NCBI GenBank assembly: GCA_025602905.1
Contig: JAHLKI010000017.1
Location: 620,001-684,000, forward strand
Length of the DNA stretch: 64,000 nucleotides
From: Phlyctochytrium arcticum
Taxonomy: Eukaryota > Chytridiomycota > Chytridiomycetes > Chytridiales > Chytridiaceae
Reading direction: 5' to 3'
The notes below the pieces were generated by a model. The model saw only the letters and a program-made list of their open reading frames with translations, searched no databases and was not told where the DNA came from. The position numbers and the translations under genes are program-made. The stretch's first letter is position 1; every line of letters begins with the position of its first letter. This document shows, one piece after another, positions 47,201 to 57,533 of this stretch.

Positions 47201-50023
47201 TCATACCTTGGCCAAAACATATATGTGTTTGGATCCTTTTGTTAACAAAAATGTTTGGTCTCTATGCTTTGTTCTTCTTCGTTTTTTCTTTTTGGTATGG
47301 CACACAGAAAAAAAGCCATGCCGGATTTGTGTTCTTCTTGCATCATGTACGAATAGCAACATGATGCAATAAAAAAATCATGCAACTCTATGTTATGAAA
47401 CAAGCGAATGCGCGGAACGCGCCCGGTCCAACGTCTTTAGCGGTGCTTATGATTAGTTTCAGAATGTCTTTGTCTGTGGGGGAAAGGGCACTCATGTATA
47501 TGTATCGAGGTCTTCCTCGCACTCCCCCTTTACACCTTTACCCGTCTCACTAGTTTACCAATACGAATAACCTCCATAACTATTGCAATCACTACGTCCA
47601 ATCGGTATATTCATAACACTCTGTACTTATCCCGCTCATTTTTGGAGGTTTTGAGCCCAATGTCTTTCCCAATGGTCGTAACATTGGTGTTTACATTTGG
47701 CAAATTTGTGATGATTTGATTTCAAAAATGATTTCAAAAAAAAATGTGAGCAAGAGATGAATCAGCGGCTGAGACCTTTGAGAGTATCCCCGCAGGTCAT
47801 CCAAAGTCGAACTCCAACAAACCTTCAATTAACCGTCAACCCAGGGTATGGCCCGATGACTGAACGCCGTGCACGGACTGGAGGAGCAGAGAACCATCAT
47901 CACATGAATTTAGAGCGGCGGTGCACAGATTTGGGTTCCCAATTGCTTGATGTGTTGAACAAAGGTCTGCAATTTCCGCCGAGAAACCGGCTGTTATCGA
48001 GCAATAGGCTGACTTGCACGGGTTAAAAGCTGATCGTGGTGCTGGAATAAGTCAAGGTCTTGTCAAAAAACCATTGCAATATTGGCGGAGTCTGATGACG
48101 ATGTTGGCAAATATACATGTCAATTCATTGAGCACAATAATTTACTCTAATTGCTCCACGAACTTTGGACCACTTGCCAAACAATCCGTTTGGCTCGTGT
48201 TCTGCTTTCGAAAGGCATACCATCTATTTTGAAAGGGATTTAGGATCCTAAATCGAAGGACCTGTATTCTGGCAAGTATAAATGTGAGTAGAAGTTTTTG
48301 AATGATATGATACTTGCGAGCGGAGAAGGTCTGAAAGTGTGCGTCGGAGATGCGTGCGTGTACTCCAATACGAGTATTTCCCCCGCACATGCAAGCAGTA
48401 CACAAGGCTGATTGATACGATACCACGGCCATCAACGAGGCAGCCCAAAGTCCATCTTCGGGTTCGCCAGCAACCAATTGGCAATCGCCCAACAACACGG
48501 GCGTTAAGAACACACCCGTGTCTCAACTGGCGACTCGAGTATACGGTAGCCACGAAATCCGCCTCGTCCACTTTTCTTGACCAGAGTTTTTCCTGATCCC
48601 TCTCCATCCCGACCTACACTAAACTGAAACGACCGCAAACCCCCAATCTGGTCCTGGTCCTAATCAATGGAGCGGAATTTGAAATGGTCCTCATGGGTTG
48701 ATGATCTTACTTGGGTCCATACAAATACAATCATGGCCAACTTGTCTGCAATCCCGAAGTCCCGGAGATTACGGAGAACATCAGGAAAGACATGACACCC
48801 GGCAATCTTCCGTATTTAGGCTGGGCCGCAAGGTCCATTTGTCCTTGCAAATAATGTTTCATAGCCCAAACTTACCCCAAACCTTGGACTGGAGTATCAA
48901 ATCATGGGAAGCCAGCCAGGGCCAGCCCATCAAGTTGTCAAGTGATTTTGTGTAGGGCATCTACTCGTATGATATATGTAGAAGAAGCACATGGGCCATC
49001 ACAAATACCCTATTTAGAGACCCGAGCCAGGGCCTCCAACGAGTGGGAGAAAAGGAAGGAAAGGCTTCCCTTCTTCGATCCCTTGCGCAGAGCGTCTCCA
49101 GATTGAAGCGGCGAGTACTCGAGTATTCTAAAAAGACGATATAGCAGACGCCATGTAAACTCCGCCCACTCCGCGACTCCGACAAGCAGCAAGGTTGTCG
49201 TCGTTATCTTAGTGGCCTGTGCTTTCGGCCCTTGGGCCCTGCCCTTGGGCTCAATTGACCCTTCCCCGGTCGGTTTTCGGGTCGGTCGTCGCCACACTTT
49301 TTGAAATGTGAGGCTCAGCCCCACCAGCCGAGCAGACCCCTGGCAGTTATTGGGGTAAGGGTTTCCTGCTATGTCCCCATCCGTGGTAGCCCACCTATTA
49401 TTGTTCTCATATTTGTTTGTCGGCGTATTTGTTCTATTCTGACCCATGGGCAGCCGTGTTTGGCACTATTCATATCCTATTCGTTTAGCCTAGCTAGCAT
49501 AAACTCATAGCCATATCATAGTGTTTTCTCCCGGCATATACCCATAGTCTAGCCTCCCTATAAAAGGCCCGTCAAAGTACATCCCACTTCTTCTGTGTGC
49601 TCTCTAATATACTTTGACTATAACAACAACTACGTTTCTCCCTGTTATCTTCCTCATCTGAGTCTTCTAACCTAAAAGCAGTCCTTCACTCGACAATACA
49701 TCTCGGAGATATTACGTGTGTTGTTGGGTTGCCCATATGAGAATATTTTGCAATTTCTTCCCTATGTGACTGTGGTTAGGTTGCCTGCATCAGAAGGCTC
49801 CGCCAATTTGATTTGTGCCAGACTTGCTCACTGTTTCCACTTCCACTTTTTCCATGCACCAATTCCAACTCTTGCACGCATGCATGCGGCAACAATATCA
49901 TATTGTCGCCGTCTGGTTCGTTTGGCAACTTCAAATTCAGTATCAGACTCGGTATCCACACGTTTGACCGCTTTCAGGACCGCTTTGGCCAAAGTGCTGC
50001 TCCACGCAAGGTGAAAGACGCAA
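44201..50023. other. 5.8 kb gene-poor region
   Basis: The first kilobase, upstream of the C2H2 ATG, is probably promoter and leader. It is rich in GGTGGT/GTCGTC elements. A 17-base C run lies at 45218-45234. Beyond about 45.4 kb only short ORFs without domains occur. A TATA-like CTATAAAAGG lies near 49559 with no gene behind it. I see no tRNA, rRNA or recognisable transposon protein here. Confidence 0.5.
45218..45234. repeat. Poly-C tract (17)
   Basis: An uninterrupted run of 17 C. Length may be uncertain in the assembly, and the G-rich strand could form quadruplex structures. Confidence 0.8.
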
Positions 50024-50029
50024 GAGATT
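50024..50029. repeat. Left target-site duplication (GAGATT)
   Basis: The hexamer abuts the left inverted repeat and is repeated exactly at 57528-57533 beyond the right inverted repeat. Confidence 0.85.
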
Positions 50030-50056
50030 TATGGTGGTCACTTTGCCCAGAAAATA
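50030..50056 (+). repeat. Left terminal inverted repeat (27 bp)
   Basis: Begins TATGGTGGTCACTTTG and ends CCCAGAAAATA. It is the reverse complement of 57501-57527 except at positions 6 and 9. Confidence 0.88.
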
Positions 50057-50062
50057 CACAAA

Positions 50063-50267
50063 TGGCAAAGGTCAAGCGCGGCACACACAAGGTCTCCACA
50101 GCTGCTACAAAGGGTCCGTCGTTCAACACACACAATGCTCCCACCGACGCACACACAAGGTACTGGTTTTGCCGACAGGAGGGCCTACTTTCGGTACATA
50201 TGAGTCATTTTCCAGTGGCAAAGGTCTCTTTGGGGATGGCAAAGGTCGCCTTCCCGATGGCAAAGGT
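50063..50267 (+). repeat. Left subterminal motif array, TGGCAAAGGT x4
   Basis: Exact TGGCAAAGGT at 50063-50072, 50216-50225, 50237-50246 and 50258-50267. The same motif occurs inverted near the right end, as expected for transposase binding sites. Confidence 0.8.
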
Positions 50268-50554
50268 CAAAGGTCGTCTGCTCGCAAAATGGCAACGGTT
50301 CGGTAGGTGCACAACTCTCTCGTTTGTGGGTGAAAATATCTTTCCATCTTTAGTGGGCTGCTCAAAATTTGTCATACCATATCCGTTGGAAGGAACGCCA
50401 GCTTGCATTTCCGGAGGTTTTTCAACACGCACGCAGTCCCATTCGAATCGAAAGCTCCTAAGGAAGTCCTGGAAGACATCAGGGTACCATCACCTCGTAA
50501 GCCCATTAGCATATCATCACCGTCACGGAGAGAAAGTGCCCAGAGCTTTCCGCG

Positions 50555-52530
50555 ATGAGTGACAGTGACCAAGAAGAGGACTTTCAATTGGAGGACGAGT
50601 TTCACGATTTTGAGGACACCGATTTTGATCCTTCGACTCTACCACATATCTCGGAAGGAGAGCCACTTCCTTTTTACGACCTATTGAACGAAGTGGCGGA
50701 GGATATCGTAAAATGTGATTATGCAATGAGGCTCTGTGCTCCAAATGACGGCCATACTATCGTTCGATGTCACAGCAGCATCCGCTTAACCATGCGCGAT
50801 ATCATAAACATCATGATAAGGTAAAGGAAAGCGGAAACCCCTTTGCGACCAGAGCCTCACAGCGAACCTGTTCCTCGATGTAGATTTTCGGACTGTCAGC
50901 ACCCTACTCTCTCTAATGATCCACGAGAGAAACGGCAGCAAGTCGTTCGTGAAATGGAAGGGTTGCTGCAGTATGCACAAAGGGTGTTTCAACAAGCAAA
51001 AAGCAGACTGGACGTATTAGTGGTTGCATACGAGTGCGGAACGGACGGCCAAGGGAATGCGTTTGATCATATGTCGACTATCCAGATCGGCCTCAGAAAC
51101 AGCGGGCTCAAAGGGCGACCGAAATATATTCTGCCGACTACATGGATTTACACCCTTCTTCAGTTTGGATACACCCAGATCAACATAGCGGCAAAACTTC
51201 GCATCTCTCGCGAGACATTGAGGGTTCATTTGAGGGCAGAAGATTTGTTGCCCAAAGATCGCAAGGCATTCACGGACGATGAGTTGGAATGGATTATTTA
51301 CGGGTTGAGAACATTCATGGGCAATGCCGCAACAATGGGATCTATGTTCCTGCAAGGTACGGTAATTGCTCAGGCCCCATCCGATTCCTTTTCAAGTATT
51401 TACAATTAGTCACCAGGAGTCCTTCGGAGCCGCTTTGGGATCAAGCTCAGTATCAGGAAAATCAAGGAGATCTCCCGCAGAGTGGATCCGAGAGGGGCTC
51501 AATCTCGACTGCGGAGAGTCGTGAAGCGGAGAGTGTACCAAGTAAGTTGAATTAATAGCAATTTCGAATCTACAGCAATATTTGTGTTCGCCAAGCGTCG
51601 TTGCTGACCGGTCTATAGGTTGCAGGTCCTTTCAGCCTGTTTCACATTGACGGATGGCACAAACTGAAGGAATACCGGCTGGTGGTCCATGGCTGTATAG
51701 ACGGTTATACACGTTACATCCTGTACATGATATGCGCTACCAACAACCCAGCCGATACGGTACTACAAATCTTTGTGAAGCATGTCTTGGATACCTTCGG
51801 AATGTGTCCCAGCCGCGTCCGAGGAGACTACGGTGGGGAAAATAACGGGGTCGAGGATTTGATGATAGAACTGCGAGGCGTCGGGCGCGGATCCTTCATT
51901 CGTGGGGGCAGTTGCAACAACCAGAGGATTGAACGTACATGGGGAGATGTGAATGCAGCCGTGGGAGTTCAGTTTTACCGAACCTGTTTCTTTCTACAAC
52001 AACATCGGGTGCTCAACCCGGATGATGAAGTGGACTTGTACTGCTTGCATACGGTGGGTTCTCGCCGTCTCAAGTTCTTATGGCTCGAGGTTGATTCAAA
52101 AGCATCTGATATTTGTTCTACCTTTCCTCTATAGACATTTGTTCCTTACATCAATTATTCACTGAAGATGTTCGTCGATGGCTTTAATCAACATTACAAC
52201 AGGAAATTGCAGGGTAGACCAGACGATATCCTCAGGCGCTTTGTGGCGCAAAAAAAGGTGGACGCCGGTGGAGATATCGATATACACGCTGATGACGATA
52301 CCATTGCATTTGTGGACCCCGCCGCATTCGCATCCACCTTCGACCGACATGGGCAGCCTCATCTGGAATATGAGCCGGTCACGGAATTCTTACCGCAAGC
52401 GGTGAAAGAAACTCTGTTGACGGGGGTAGACCATCACCCATGGCAGTTGGGGGCCGACGAGCAGATGCGGACATACTGCAGATTCAGGGAGGCTGTACGA
52501 AACTATCTTCATGACAACTCCTCTCTGTAA
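50555..52530 (+). CDS. DDE integrase/transposase (rve-like, DD34E), 571 aa, 5 exons
   Basis: Exons 50555-50820, 50863-51356, 51417-51541, 51619-52053 and 52135-52530 join to 571 codons plus TAA. An acidic N-terminus is followed by a helical region with a helix-turn-helix-like stretch (INIAAKLRISRETLRVHL), then a basic linker (RRVDPRGAQSRLRRVVKRR). The catalytic core follows: first Asp in FHIDGWHKL (51649), second Asp in RVRGDYGGENN (51826) and Glu in NNQRIERTW (51931), with 34 residues between the last two. This matches the integrase-core family common in basidiomycetes and other fungi, whose cores read HIDGWHKL then D.GGEN then NQRIERLW. It would cut and join the element ends in the nucleus. 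If the first intron (42 nt) is not removed, an in-frame TAA would stop it. Otherwise it looks intact. Confidence 0.9.
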
Positions 52531-53377
52531 ACACTGTCTTGAAGTAGGATGGTGAAGGCGGAACTTTGGAGGAGACTCGCGACTTCGTTTACTTAGAGTT
52601 TTCTGTAGTAGAACTGGACTTGCTGGTCTCCTTTGAGGATTCAACACCACCCCTCCGTGAAGTAGCGCAGGTTCAAGTTTGTGACAACTCGGCTCGTCAG
52701 TATCTTTATTACATTTTTGATTCACGCGTCGCGTACTAGTTCCTATTATTGGCTATTATTGGCTGTTGACCGTCCTTTACCTGAGGTAGTTAGCGGTAGC
52801 TTTTGTACCTAGCTACTCACTTTATATGACTCAAGTCTTCTGGACATCCCCTCCTACTCCTTTAGCATTACTTTACGCCTAGTACTTCATTCAATAAATT
52901 ATAGTTTTGCTCAACAACCCTGAACCAACGAGTCCTGTTATAAAGTTGCAGTGATAGACTCGAAAAAACGAGCTACGAGTCGTTATGTTTGGGACATTTC
53001 ACTACTAAGCTAATCAAAGGTGAACAGCTGAAAATGTCCAACCGTAACGCTCGATACTACGACCTTATTCAGCGTCGATTTTAAGTAAAGTCAAACGATT
53101 CGCAGTAAGAAAGTATACCCTATACATCAAACATCGGTCCAATAAAGAATACGCCTCTACGGCTAACAAGCATCAAATATCGGTCCAATAAAGAATACGC
53201 TCTACAACTAACAAACATCAAATATCGGTTCAATAAAGAATACGCCTCTACGACTAACAAACATTAAATATCGGTCCCATAAAGAATACGCCTCAACGAC
53301 TAACAAACATCAAATCTCGGTCCAATGGAGAGTACGCCTCTACGACTAAAAAGCACTATATAATTACAAACAAGGGT
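52531..53377. other. Region between the two convergent transposon genes
   Basis: Holds facing 3' ends, including AATAAA-like sequence near 52893, and the 46-bp tandem repeat. No further ORF supported. Confidence 0.5.
53125..53352. repeat. Tandem repeat, about 46 bp x 5, inside the transposon
   Basis: Five consecutive copies of a unit that begins CATCAAATATCGGTCCAATA and continues with AAGAATACGCCTCTACGACT, each differing at a few bases. It lies between the convergent integrase and HECT genes, at their 3' ends. Confidence 0.9.
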
Positions 53378-56300
53378 TCACTTGGCGTTGAAGCTCAATA
53401 CGCCCTGTTTCCCAAACCCCGTCATATACGCGTCCCAGCAGTTCAACAAGTCTGCGGGATTCTCGAAGTTGCGGCCCAGAATCAGACGTCGACTGCAGGT
53501 GTTGGTCTTTGGAGCATTCTCATCCCTCTTAGCCAACCGCTTCCCTTCATCGAATGCTTTGTTGACCGCATTGACACACTCCGCGTTGTCCATCCCTCCA
53601 GGGTATTGATCGACGATGTGAGCATACCTGTGAACCTTCGAACTTTCCTCCCATTGTAGCTCCAAGGCGGCCAACCGCAATTTCTTGTCTTCCCAAAAGA
53701 CCCCAACCTTACCTTGGTAAGCGCGACTGCCACAGACCCATTGGAGGAAGTCCTCCACTTGGTCTTGGGTCCATTCATCACGAATGTGACTCCGGAGGGC
53801 TGTCTCAAACTCTTGTTGAAGAGGGAAGGGCGTCCTCGACGTAAAGTGCAGTGTGAAGTCGGCGAGATCCGCGGGGGTTGGTTTGTAGACTAGGAGTTGA
53901 CTGATGGCGCCCTTTTCTTTGTCCAAGAAGTCGCGGACAGGTTGGAAGGACGACCAGAGCTGCATTCCCTCACTCATGGCCTTCAGGGCATGACGGCGCG
54001 CCTGCTTCCATTTGTCCTCCAGAGCCCTCGGAAGGCGGTGGATCTCAAAATGAGTAGGTGCTTCGCGTAAAATGCTCATGATAGCAGACTTATGCGCGGA
54101 AGGTAGGTTAGTCCATGTTAAAGTGCCTCGACTGGATAGTATTTGGTGGATGTTGGGGTCCAGGAGAGACCAGTCGATAGTGCCGGTAGCATCGGTTGTT
54201 GCTAACATACATGTGCTCAAGAGGCACGGATTAAGCTTGAGCAGGTGGCTGTTATGAACCAAAGAAAAGACAAACAGCCATCCAATGAACTTGTAAATGC
54301 GTAGCTGAGCTTCTGTCGGGCCGTCAGGAACGAGATCGTAGGGAAAAGCGCACGGAATGAAGGTGTCGCCGTAAGTCTTCGAAAAAACACAGTCAATTGT
54401 GGTTGAACCTTCACGTATGACAGTAACCTTACCTTTTCAAACAACGGTAGCCCTTCCAGCGCCTTCGTGGTAAACTCTTCAAAAGTGGCGCCTATTACCG
54501 ACCGTGTCGGTCCCCCCGCATCCACGGCTTTGTACGCTGTCACCAAGGGAGTCACCCTGAGAGAGTACCGGGCTTCTGTTAGTCGAGAAGAAACTTGAGA
54601 AGAATAAAAAAGGCGATAGTGTACCTGACAGTGCTCCCAGAGTACATGATTCCTGCAAGCTTGGGATCATCACCAATTTCAATGAACACCTGACTGCAGA
54701 ATGAGTCTGCAAGATCGGCGATGTCGTCGGCTAGTTTAACTGAAATTGATTGGGCTTTTCTGACACGAGCTGGTTTCAGGAGGTTCCGTTGCTCCTTGAC
54801 GTCCACACAAATTCCGACAATGCGACCGAATTCGGTGCTGGTTCGGAACACCTCCGTTGCCTGTTCTTGATCGAGAAAGTCCCGGAGAACGATGTTTTCC
54901 GCTGGGACGAACGGTTGTAGCAATTCCTCATGGTCGTACAGGTCGTCTTCGCTGTTGCCCTCAACCGCACCGAAAGGGCTAAGGGAGATGAAATGAGACG
55001 CGGTAGGTTCGAGAAAGTTGTTTGCTACCATGCCGCCAGCTTGGACGGAGTGGTCGATTTCAAGCATCCACGGACTGTCCGTGATGAGGTCCGCGTTGTG
55101 AAAGTCATCCGGAACTTGGGCTAGTTCCGGGATGAGTATGGGTTCCATAGTCTCGATCGGTTCATCGACTCTGCTGGATAGAGAGACATGGCGACTGCGT
55201 GGGAAAGTGAATTCCCTGTCAATGACCGAGTCCGTGTCTGACGTGAAATTCGATGAGGTCCTCCGGTTTGTAATCATGGGGTAAGGTCTGGCGGGTGGTT
55301 GGGTGGACGAGGAAGGAAAATGGGGTGAACGAGAGCGGCGACTGGAAGTTGACAATCGGGAACTGCCAATGGGAGACTGCGACCGACGGGGCTCCCGACA
55401 CAATTCCTCGTATCGGACTGCTAGAGCCCGAAGCTCCTCCCCGAAGTTCGGACTGATAAAGCCCAGGTACATCCTATAGATCGGCCAGTCTTCTTCCGTC
55501 TTCTGCCCACGTTGTAAGTTGGTGAATCGAGGAATGTGAGAGGCATTCCATGATTCTGATAAGGAGTCGATTATACTTCCACTAGGTAGGTAGTTGCAAT
55601 CCTTGAGGCGCTGCGCCTGTGACTGGAAAATCACCAGGTTGCTCGTGTCGATGTACTGAAATTGGTACGGTAAGCCAATCAAAGTTGATGGACATCATGA
55701 TTCAGGATGGATCTTACCTGATACGCCAAATCTTGTGCTTCCCGCCGGAATCGCTGTGCCAAGGATCCCCCTTCCGAAAAAGCCTTTTCCATATCATAGT
55801 CTTGCCTCAGTAGAGATGGCAAGTTATGCACGAAACCCAGCCTTAGTTTCATGACCATCTCGGCCATAATTTCCGAAGCGCTTGTTACCCGGGGTTTTAT
55901 GGAAAAAGATGAGGTCTGCGATAACAGAGAGAGTCAATCAATGTTACAGGGCTAGCAAATACACACGCTCTGATGCCAAATTTGCTCACCGAGGCACGAA
56001 AGTTGAAACTATCTTGAATAGACCGCGGATGAGGATTTAAGAACACGGTTGCTTCAACTCCTACACCTATGGAATACATGTCTGATTTGAAATTGAATCG
56101 ATTCAAAGAAGGGCTGCAGGTTCCATACCGGTGGGCTTTTCCACAGACTGCAATTTGGCCTTTTGGCGACTCCTCCTGGCTCCGCTGGCGGCCGTCGCAA
56201 CGTCTTGTCTACGGATGAACGTGCTAGCCTTCTGGCTCGTACGGGGGACTCTTCCGGCAGCAGTTCGTTCTTCGATGGGGGTGGGAATGCTGACATCCAA

Positions 56301-56930
56301 AGGAGGTAGATTGAAACCGGGATTTGTGGAGAAAATTTGTCCAGCCGACCTTAGAGCAGAGTTGTTGTGTCCGAAGACCCTCGTTTGTGCGTTGTCTATG
56401 GCGGCGACGTATGCGGGTGTAGCGGTGATCGTTGACGTTGCAGTGATGGAGCCGACATGATTGATATTCTGGAGGTTGCTGGAACTTGAAGTTGGCAGTG
56501 CGAGCCCAGGTGATCCGACCATTGTGCCAACTCCAGGAGTAATGGTCCTCTCAATGAGTATCTTGGTCATGGTTTGTAGACCTGCGGTAAGGGAGAAGAT
56601 GAAATGGTATCAGGCAAGGTAGAAACTACTTGAAATAGAGGTATTAAGTGCTGCTCTACCTGCGACTTGCTTGGTAAACATTTCATCCAAAGGCATAAGC
56701 TTTCCTTGAGAGTCAGAAGCGTAAACTCTCCACTCTGCCTTGTTAATGCTGTTCAGCATACGCTTGCTGAATTCTGCCATGAGTGCATAGCAGAGATGGT
56801 GGGCTGATTGCCATGTCTGGGGTGACTGTTCCCAGTTGTTAATGATGGTGTTGTTTGCACGGACCTCCACCGGGAGAGGGGCATTAAGTAACAGGGGTTG
56901 GTTGCAGGGAAGGGCATTGGGGACTTCCAT
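53378..56930 (-). CDS. Transposon-carried HECT-type E3 ubiquitin ligase-like protein, about 1054 aa, 7 exons, with one frame conflict
   Basis: Exons 56930-56660, 56581-56129, 56066-55990, 55915-55718, 55655-54625, about 54568-54433 and 54376-53378. The N-terminal 600 residues are a helical start (QSAHHLCYALMAEFSKRMLN) and disordered Ser/Arg-rich sequence without a domain I know. The C-terminal 380 residues follow HECT order: LRVTPLVTAYKAVDAGGPTR (the GGxxR motif), LRIYKFIGWLFVFSLVHNSH (N-lobe helix), VEDFLQWVCGSRAYQG, then the C-lobe with NTCSRRLIL, where Cys (codon 53495-53497) sits 39 residues from the end, close to the usual place of the catalytic Cys. The exon 5/6 junction does not keep frame with a canonical acceptor. 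Function in the element is unknown. Confidence 0.65.
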
Positions 56931-57122
56931 AAGTGCTACTGATGCTGACCCTAATCAGGATGGGAAGTTACTGGTTTGAATCTTGAAAGGTTTTCGACCA
57001 AACGACGGACGGACACGTTTGACTGGAATTTCTAGGTAGATCCGCTACTCCGACTCCGACTCACCGGTTAACCACAAAATTAACCACAAAAATGAAATTT
57101 TTGCCACGGTCGGTACCTCGGT

Positions 57123-57212
57123 ACCTTTGCCACATTACCTCGGTACCTTTGCCACGGAGGGTGTTTGAGGGTGTGGGGTTTGAGGGTGTGGGGTTTGAGG
57201 ATACCTTTGACA
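57123..57212 (-). repeat. Right subterminal motif array, inverted TGGCAAAGGT
   Basis: ACCTTTGCCA at 57123-57132 and 57145-57154, and ACCTTTGACA (one mismatch) at 57203-57212, that is, the left-end motif in opposite orientation. A 22-bp tandem duplication containing CTCGGTACCTTTGCCAC and a GTTTGAGGGTGTGGG repeat lie in the same block. Confidence 0.78.
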
Positions 57213-57500
57213 GACGAGCGGAGCTTGTGGCGCATTTCTGCCGTAATCGTTGTCACATGACCTGCCAAGACCTGCCACTCTTTCAAACCTGGCTGATCCA
57301 GCTTTGCCTCCAAAATCCAACCCTTGTTAAAAACCTGGTGCTCTGCCATAATATGCACTCCAGAGCGCCAAATGACCACTAGCTTGTGCCGTTTGTTGAG
57401 AACGGCTTTGCCAAATGTGAATTACATAATAAAAGCTTGTGTGTGCGCAGAAAACAAGCTTGTCCATCCTGAAAATCACGTTGCTCATGCCAGAAAAAGC

Positions 57501-57527
57501 TATTTTCTGGGCAAAGTGCCCCCCATA
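57501..57527 (-). repeat. Right terminal inverted repeat (27 bp)
   Basis: On the minus strand it begins TATGGGGGGCACTTTG and ends CCCAGAAAATA, matching the left end at 25 of 27 positions. Confidence 0.88.
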
Positions 57528-57533
57528 GAGATT
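57528..57533. repeat. Right target-site duplication (GAGATT)
   Basis: Exact copy of 50024-50029 directly outside the right inverted repeat. Confidence 0.85.

Follow-up and report, generated by a model that had tools for sequence, protein, structure and literature searches.

We report a complete 7498-bp DNA transposon (positions 50030-57527) with two intact convergent genes in a 64,000-nucleotide stretch of the genome of the early-branching chytrid fungus Phlyctochytrium arcticum (assembly GCA_025602905.1, contig JAHLKI010000017.1, positions 620,001 to 684,000 of the forward strand; the window, whose own coordinates are used below). We consider it likely that this is a cut-and-paste element of the IS3EU/GingerRoot superfamily, which has recently spread in this fungus and carries, in addition to its transposase, a divergent HECT-like helper acting most likely via ubiquitin transfer. 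The ends of the element, its target-site duplications, its further copies, the two intact genes in the window copy and in one other, and the selection acting on the encoded proteins are established by the observations presented here; the biochemical role of the second protein is predicted from conserved sequence features.

Boundaries of the element

The element is delimited on the left by a 27-bp terminal inverted repeat (TIR) beginning TATGG (TATGGTGGTCACTTTGCCCAGAAAATA; 50030..50056, plus strand) and on the right by its counterpart ending CCATA (the complement of TATGGGGGGCACTTTGCCCAGAAAATA; 57501..57527, minus strand), each being read in the sequence and recovered by an end-pattern search. 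The two repeats agree at 25 of 27 positions and are bracketed by a perfect 6-bp target-site duplication (TSD), GAGATT (50024..50029 and 57528..57533), seen in the sequence and in the extracted flanks. For a single given pair, the chance of at least 25 matches in 27 is 1.8e-13 and that of a matching 6-bp duplication is 2.4e-4, both before any correction for the search. The flanks adjoining both junctions are single-copy, and a more distal part of the left flank (49500-49677) has three partial matches elsewhere in the genome.

Between the TIRs, the motif GGCAAAGG occurs four times within the left 240 bp (at 50064, 50217, 50238 and 50259; 50064..50266, plus strand), in a region that includes a 21-bp tandem repeat (50216-50268). 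Inverted relative to these, CCTTTGCC occurs twice, some 0.4 kb short of the right end (at 57124 and 57146; 57124..57153, minus strand), in a region that includes a 22-bp repeat (57114-57155). Across the remaining 56.5 kb of the window these motifs occur only two and zero times, respectively, and they might represent binding repeats for the transposase. The initial annotation, made by inspection of the window, had described a complete DNA transposon with 27-bp TIRs, 6-bp TSDs and inverted subterminal motifs, and this description is borne out in each of these respects and by the multiple copies sharing the same ends.

Copies in the genome and history of the element

We searched the genome (31.5 Mb in 91 contigs, including the window), naming the copies of the element by their contigs. 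The TIR pattern, with up to three mismatches allowed, gave nine matches, all of which are ends of this element family, while a reversed control pattern gave none; the genome-wide search with the ends that had been proposed as a check thus recovered further copies with the same ends. A search with the element DNA identified three near-identical full-length copies, namely that of the window (C17), C20 and C14. A fourth full-length copy, C3 (within C3:634000-643500), is diverged and older, with 89-97% identity depending on the piece, and a fifth, C4, is about 92% identical and truncated on the right, such that it is no longer element sequence beyond approximately window position 56,317. Additionally, a 157-bp left end alone, 100% identical, is present on C39 (approximately 1284-1440), with the adjoining DNA matching no other part of the element; it may represent a deletion, an abortive event or a truncated insertion. 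The left end of the window copy is shared by C20, C14, C3 and C39.

Two of the four two-ended copies display perfect 6-bp duplications, which differ from each other (GAGATT in C17 and CACTGC in C3) and show that the whole 7.5-kb unit was mobile in the past. Weighing against simple cut-and-paste insertion, the other two, C20 and C14, lack such duplications, which may be a consequence of later rearrangement; the right tip of C14 also bears one changed base, reading CCATC. Over the aligned element, only 17 and 15 substitutions, respectively, separate C20 and C14 from C17 (indels uncounted), and we therefore take the spread of the element to be recent. C3 is a mosaic with respect to C17, its transposase half being close (synonymous divergence, dS, of 0.05) and its accessory half distant (dS 0.27), which suggests exchange between element lineages.

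The transposase and its affinities

The first gene (50555..52530, plus strand; exons 50555-50820, 50863-51356, 51417-51541, 51619-52053 and 52135-52530) codes for a transposase of 571 amino acids. Its splice sites are of the GT-AG type and its reading frame is free of internal stops in C17, C20 and C14; the genes of C3 and C4 carry stops or deletions, with two splice sites also lost in C3. The protein matches the Pfam rva_4 model with E=3.3e-53 and presents the catalytic triad D306, D365 and E400, with 34 residues between the last two, in agreement with the DD34E integrase recognized in the initial annotation. Among its 151 homologues detected at E<=1e-3, all 120 of the matches listed contain PF24764, and those listed with names come from fungi (Gonapodya, Tilletia, Tremellales) and animals. 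The catalytic residues are invariant in all 21 aligned sequences (the query and 20 of the 120 listed homologues). In a tree of these 20 homologues and the element, the latter groups weakly with fungal sequences (support 55/87), its branch being long in a region where long branches meet. A Pfam scan detected no zinc domain in the transposase, no test having been aimed at the N-terminal HHCC zinc motif as such.

As described in PMC10045372, IS3EU elements have TA..TA ends and usually 6-bp duplications. The element shares with them the 6-bp TSD (in C17 and C3), the TA..TA termini (TATGG..CCATA in C17, C20 and C3) and an integrase-like, rve-type DDE transposase, but differs in being 7.5 kb long with a second, HECT-like gene. 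It hence fits the IS3EU/GingerRoot superfamily, in which we place it by these published traits, the Repbase sequences lying outside the comparison; the earlier assignment to an "IS3-like eukaryotic group" accords with this placement. A parallel is also offered by the TET-carrying IS3EU elements of rust fungi and Tuber (PMC12730594), which likewise combine a fungal host, 6-bp TSDs and TAYGG..CCRTA ends with a second gene in opposite orientation to the transposase. However, the accessory genes of those elements code for TET/JBP proteins and alpha-kinases, and the TIRs of the rust elements exceed 30 bp, as against the HECT-like gene and 27-bp TIRs of the present element; the words "HECT" and "ubiquitin" do not occur in the main text of that paper.

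The accessory gene is a conserved component of the element

The second gene (53378..56930, minus strand; exons 56930-56660, 56581-56129, 56066-55990, 55915-55718, 55655-54625, 54556-54433 and 54376-53378) is convergent with the transposase gene and codes for a protein of 1050 amino acids. It is intact in C17 and C20, and interrupted by one stop, at codon 87, in C14. The splice dinucleotides are retained at six out of six introns in C3 and at five out of six in C4, with frame-breaking deletions in both genes of C3 and stops in both genes of C4.

Searches of 5.8 billion proteins with residues 540-1050 (E up to 1e-3, scoring only the 7992 candidates sharing most words) and residues 672-1050 (E up to 10) recovered a sole relative, P0001, a hypothetical protein of P. 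arcticum itself, identical to the protein from the window at 1046 of 1050 residues; no other relative emerged with these two queries, the N-terminal half not having been queried alone. As P0001 differs from the proteins of each of C17, C20 and C14 by three to four residues and is encoded on a 7,934-bp contig, it probably reflects a further copy in the public assembly. The N-terminal 670 residues have no Pfam match above cut-off. Against the genome the accessory protein gave 40 matches, every one of them inside the five element copies, and there is thus no host relative to be found at that sensitivity.

To gauge constraint we used pairwise counts of nonsynonymous (dN) and synonymous changes, their ratio being omega, with 5-95% bootstrap intervals; these values also count changes from the decay that C3 and C4 underwent after insertion. 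The C-terminal part of the accessory protein (codons 671-1050) has evolved under purifying selection, with omega of 0.20 (0.14-0.30; dN 0.057, dS 0.293) between C17 and C3, and 0.27 (0.17-0.40; dN 0.038, dS 0.138) between C17 and C4. The N-terminal 280 codons are under comparable constraint (omega 0.19, C17 versus C3), and codons 425-540 are relaxed or uncertain, with values of 0.69 and 0.49 and intervals extending beyond 1. The values between C17 and C4 for codons 1-280 (0.69) and for the whole gene (0.48) were discarded, because C4 is not element sequence beyond approximately 56,317. For the transposase, omega is 0.21 (0.12-0.35) between C17 and C4; the value of 0.63 between C17 and C3, with an interval reaching 1.04, sits less well with a transposase maintained by selection. 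Since decay after insertion raises omega, the accessory protein was, if anything, under stronger constraint before that event.

These observations bear on another view of the second gene, namely that it is a host gene caught by chance between two transposon ends, a passive cargo of no use to the element. Functionless capture is common among DNA transposons, yet here the gene is found in all five long copies (partially in C4), among them C3, whose own duplication marks it as a separate insertion; purifying selection has acted on the gene between element lineages; and at the sensitivity of the search all its matches in the genome lie inside the element copies. Passive cargo is hence already disfavoured, and we regard it as highly improbable.

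Evidence for and against HECT ancestry

The C-terminal region of the accessory protein (approximately residues 671-1050) displays landmarks of the HECT domain of E3 ubiquitin ligases (PF00632), which were first recognized by eye. In the order typical of HECT domains, and with similar spacing, we find VDAGG at 688 (the DxGG landmark), IYKFIG at 745 (F-x-x-V/I-G), LLDP at 789 (DP), FLQWVCGS at 928 (FVTG-like) and TNTC at 1009-1012. An anchor-and-spacing test accordingly places a putative catalytic cysteine, Cys1012, within a Thr-Cys pair close to the C terminus, downstream of ordered N-lobe landmarks, and this Thr-Cys pair is retained in four of the five copies (C17, C20, C14 and C4).

In this test a chain of five blocks (DxGG, FxxVG, DP, FVTG and TC) was matched with the spacing of the host HECT proteins, a slack of 15, and up to 40 extra residues allowed before the last block. 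The score of 69.1 compares with a mean of 14.8 and a maximum of 45.0 in 1000 shuffles, a maximum of 26.2 in 117 transposases (themselves related to one another) and one of 33.0 in 210 six-frame chunks of the window. None of 1000 shuffles reached the score in any of four spacing settings, and none of 500 did so when either the DxGG or the TC block was omitted; with the three middle blocks only, eight of 500 did.

Other results weigh on the opposite side. The Pfam HECT model finds no match in the accessory protein at E up to 5, and none of the 18 genomic matches that it gives at E up to 10 falls in the element; no HECT chain is present among the PDB matches of phmmer or of a three-sequence profile at E up to 10. 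With hhalign, 13 of 100 column shuffles reached the local score against HECT in one setting and 20 of 100 in another, and 51 of 100 reached the global score; it pairs the right segments in the right order but does not outscore the shuffles. Alignment of the whole domain to six host HECT proteins gave a weak signal (z 2.2, reached by 5 of 200 shuffles), as did a seven-block anchor chain (z 2.8, reached by 10 of 1000 shuffles and none of 117 transposases), and both placed the middle of the domain poorly. The five-block chain derives from the latter by dropping three blocks, shortening three, adding the DP block and tightening the spacing except before the last block; as these blocks and spacings were refined after the protein had been seen, its figures overstate the case. 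Under host spacing and with no insertion allowed, the fourth block misses FLQWVCGS, even as none of 1000 shuffles reaches the scores of 57.6 and 66.2. The protein itself departs from HECT ligases in having about 28-46 extra residues ahead of the cysteine and in lacking the proline that follows the HECT cysteine motif, and C3, a decayed copy, has changes in both DxGG and Thr-Cys. Single-sequence AlphaFold models (mean predicted local distance difference test score, pLDDT, of 34.5 for the whole protein and 39.9 for the last exon) are too poor to use.

Taking both sides together, we hold HECT ancestry of the accessory protein to be quite likely, and an active ligase to be less so; it is best labelled HECT-like, probably homologous to HECT domains, with putative activity. 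The HECT-ligase cargo of the initial annotation is thereby sustained in part: the ordered anchors and their spacing speak for it, while the Pfam and hhalign comparisons lend it no support, and it is only probable.

The parallel with the rust-fungus elements raises the alternative that the gene codes for a divergent alpha-kinase. The superfamily and the opposite orientation are the same as reported in PMC12730594. A stretch of the protein, LLDPNIHQ, is also somewhat like an alpha-kinase motif. Nonetheless, the alpha-kinase model of Pfam has no match in the accessory protein at E up to 5, nor in the genome at E up to 10 (a weak result, given that no positive control matched), and the five HECT landmarks are present in order. 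This identity is accordingly disfavoured, and we see very little chance of it.

Functional proposals

The transposase would bind the TIRs, and perhaps the inverted subterminal repeats, as expected from its superfamily, and would excise the element and join it to a 6-bp staggered cut. The product of the convergent gene, in turn, would be a divergent HECT-like protein serving the element itself, its most likely action being to transfer ubiquitin via the putative catalytic Cys1012; such transfer might either limit the transposase or mark a host repair or silencing protein. The view that the element works as a transposon whose helper gene acts on a host protein or on the transposase is better supported than the assignment of the accessory protein to the HECT family, for which profile searches were run and returned no match. 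More specifically, we tentatively posit, though at a little less than even confidence, that an IS3EU lineage recruited a fast-diverging HECT ligase as a transposon-encoded E3, either controlling the level of the transposase or degrading a host silencing or repair factor.

The main alternative to the ubiquitin-transfer step is a structural, non-catalytic helper in the same IS3EU transposon: the accessory protein would be a HECT-derived or unrelated scaffold devoid of ligase activity, for instance a second DNA-binding or targeting factor required for transposition. Consistent with this, none of the profile methods tried calls the protein HECT, some HECT residues have been lost, and constraint on its N-terminal 280 codons is as strong as on the HECT-like part. 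Conversely, the order and spacing of the anchors fit HECT, and the only copy without the Thr-Cys pair, C3, is one decayed by frame-breaking indels. We therefore judge a scaffold to be rather unlikely, and favour the HECT-like helper transferring ubiquitin.

Sequences between the two genes

Between the two genes lies a probable old solo long terminal repeat (LTR) of a retrotransposon (TGTGACA..TGTTATA, 263 bp, 52680..52942), with a 5-bp duplication, AAGTT, on both sides (52675-52679 and 52943-52947). In C20, C14, C3 and C4 this stretch can be aligned with no large gap, and it is thus common to all five long copies; hence, the LTR predates their divergence, and the element tolerated a nested insertion before spreading. 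Related repeats of about 256-267 bp, looked at in 12 places, fall into two subfamilies and include two same-strand pairs about 5 kb apart. Downstream of the accessory gene, also in the intergenic region, a repeat scan identified a 46-bp tandem repeat of 4.9 copies (53124..53349).

Relatives beyond the fungus

We also looked for IS3EU relatives beyond eukaryotic genomes. None was present among 39 pattern stretches from viral contigs, and four were among 34 from contigs of prokaryote genomes (L069, L070, L071 and L072), on contigs of 3.4-4.2 kb. Three of these come from one bin of a sponge symbiont (Cycloclasticus), and a Myxococcales bin is also represented. The IS3EU-type transposase genes on these contigs of bacterial metagenome-assembled genomes look eukaryotic and are probably contamination of the bins. 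By eye, and without a profile scan, no HECT gene was recognized in the listed reading frames of the four contigs; the three sponge contigs have no TATGG-type TIR pair, and one 16-nt inverted pair surrounds the transposase of L069. In fish and invertebrates, multi-copy HECT genes with a G2E3-like annotation have the look of transposon-borne genes, although no paper among those listed by literature searches confirms this. A literature search, with most subscription papers and Repbase outside its coverage, yielded no report of a HECT gene in a DNA transposon among the titles and abstract openings listed.

General considerations

The accessory genes of DNA transposons reveal the host systems that a transposon must handle. 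In this sense, TET/JBP genes are a sign of DNA methylation, and a conserved HECT-like gene would be one of protein ubiquitination. If the HECT reading is true, an IS3EU-borne E3 would join the TET/JBP and alpha-kinase genes that other IS3EU elements of fungi carry. The compactness of the element and its near-identical copies make the need for a transposon-encoded ligase in transposition directly testable. Moreover, as the domain is suggested by its landmarks and missed by the profiles tried, similar cargo in other elements may be overlooked. Transposons of this kind may use the protein-tagging system of their hosts.

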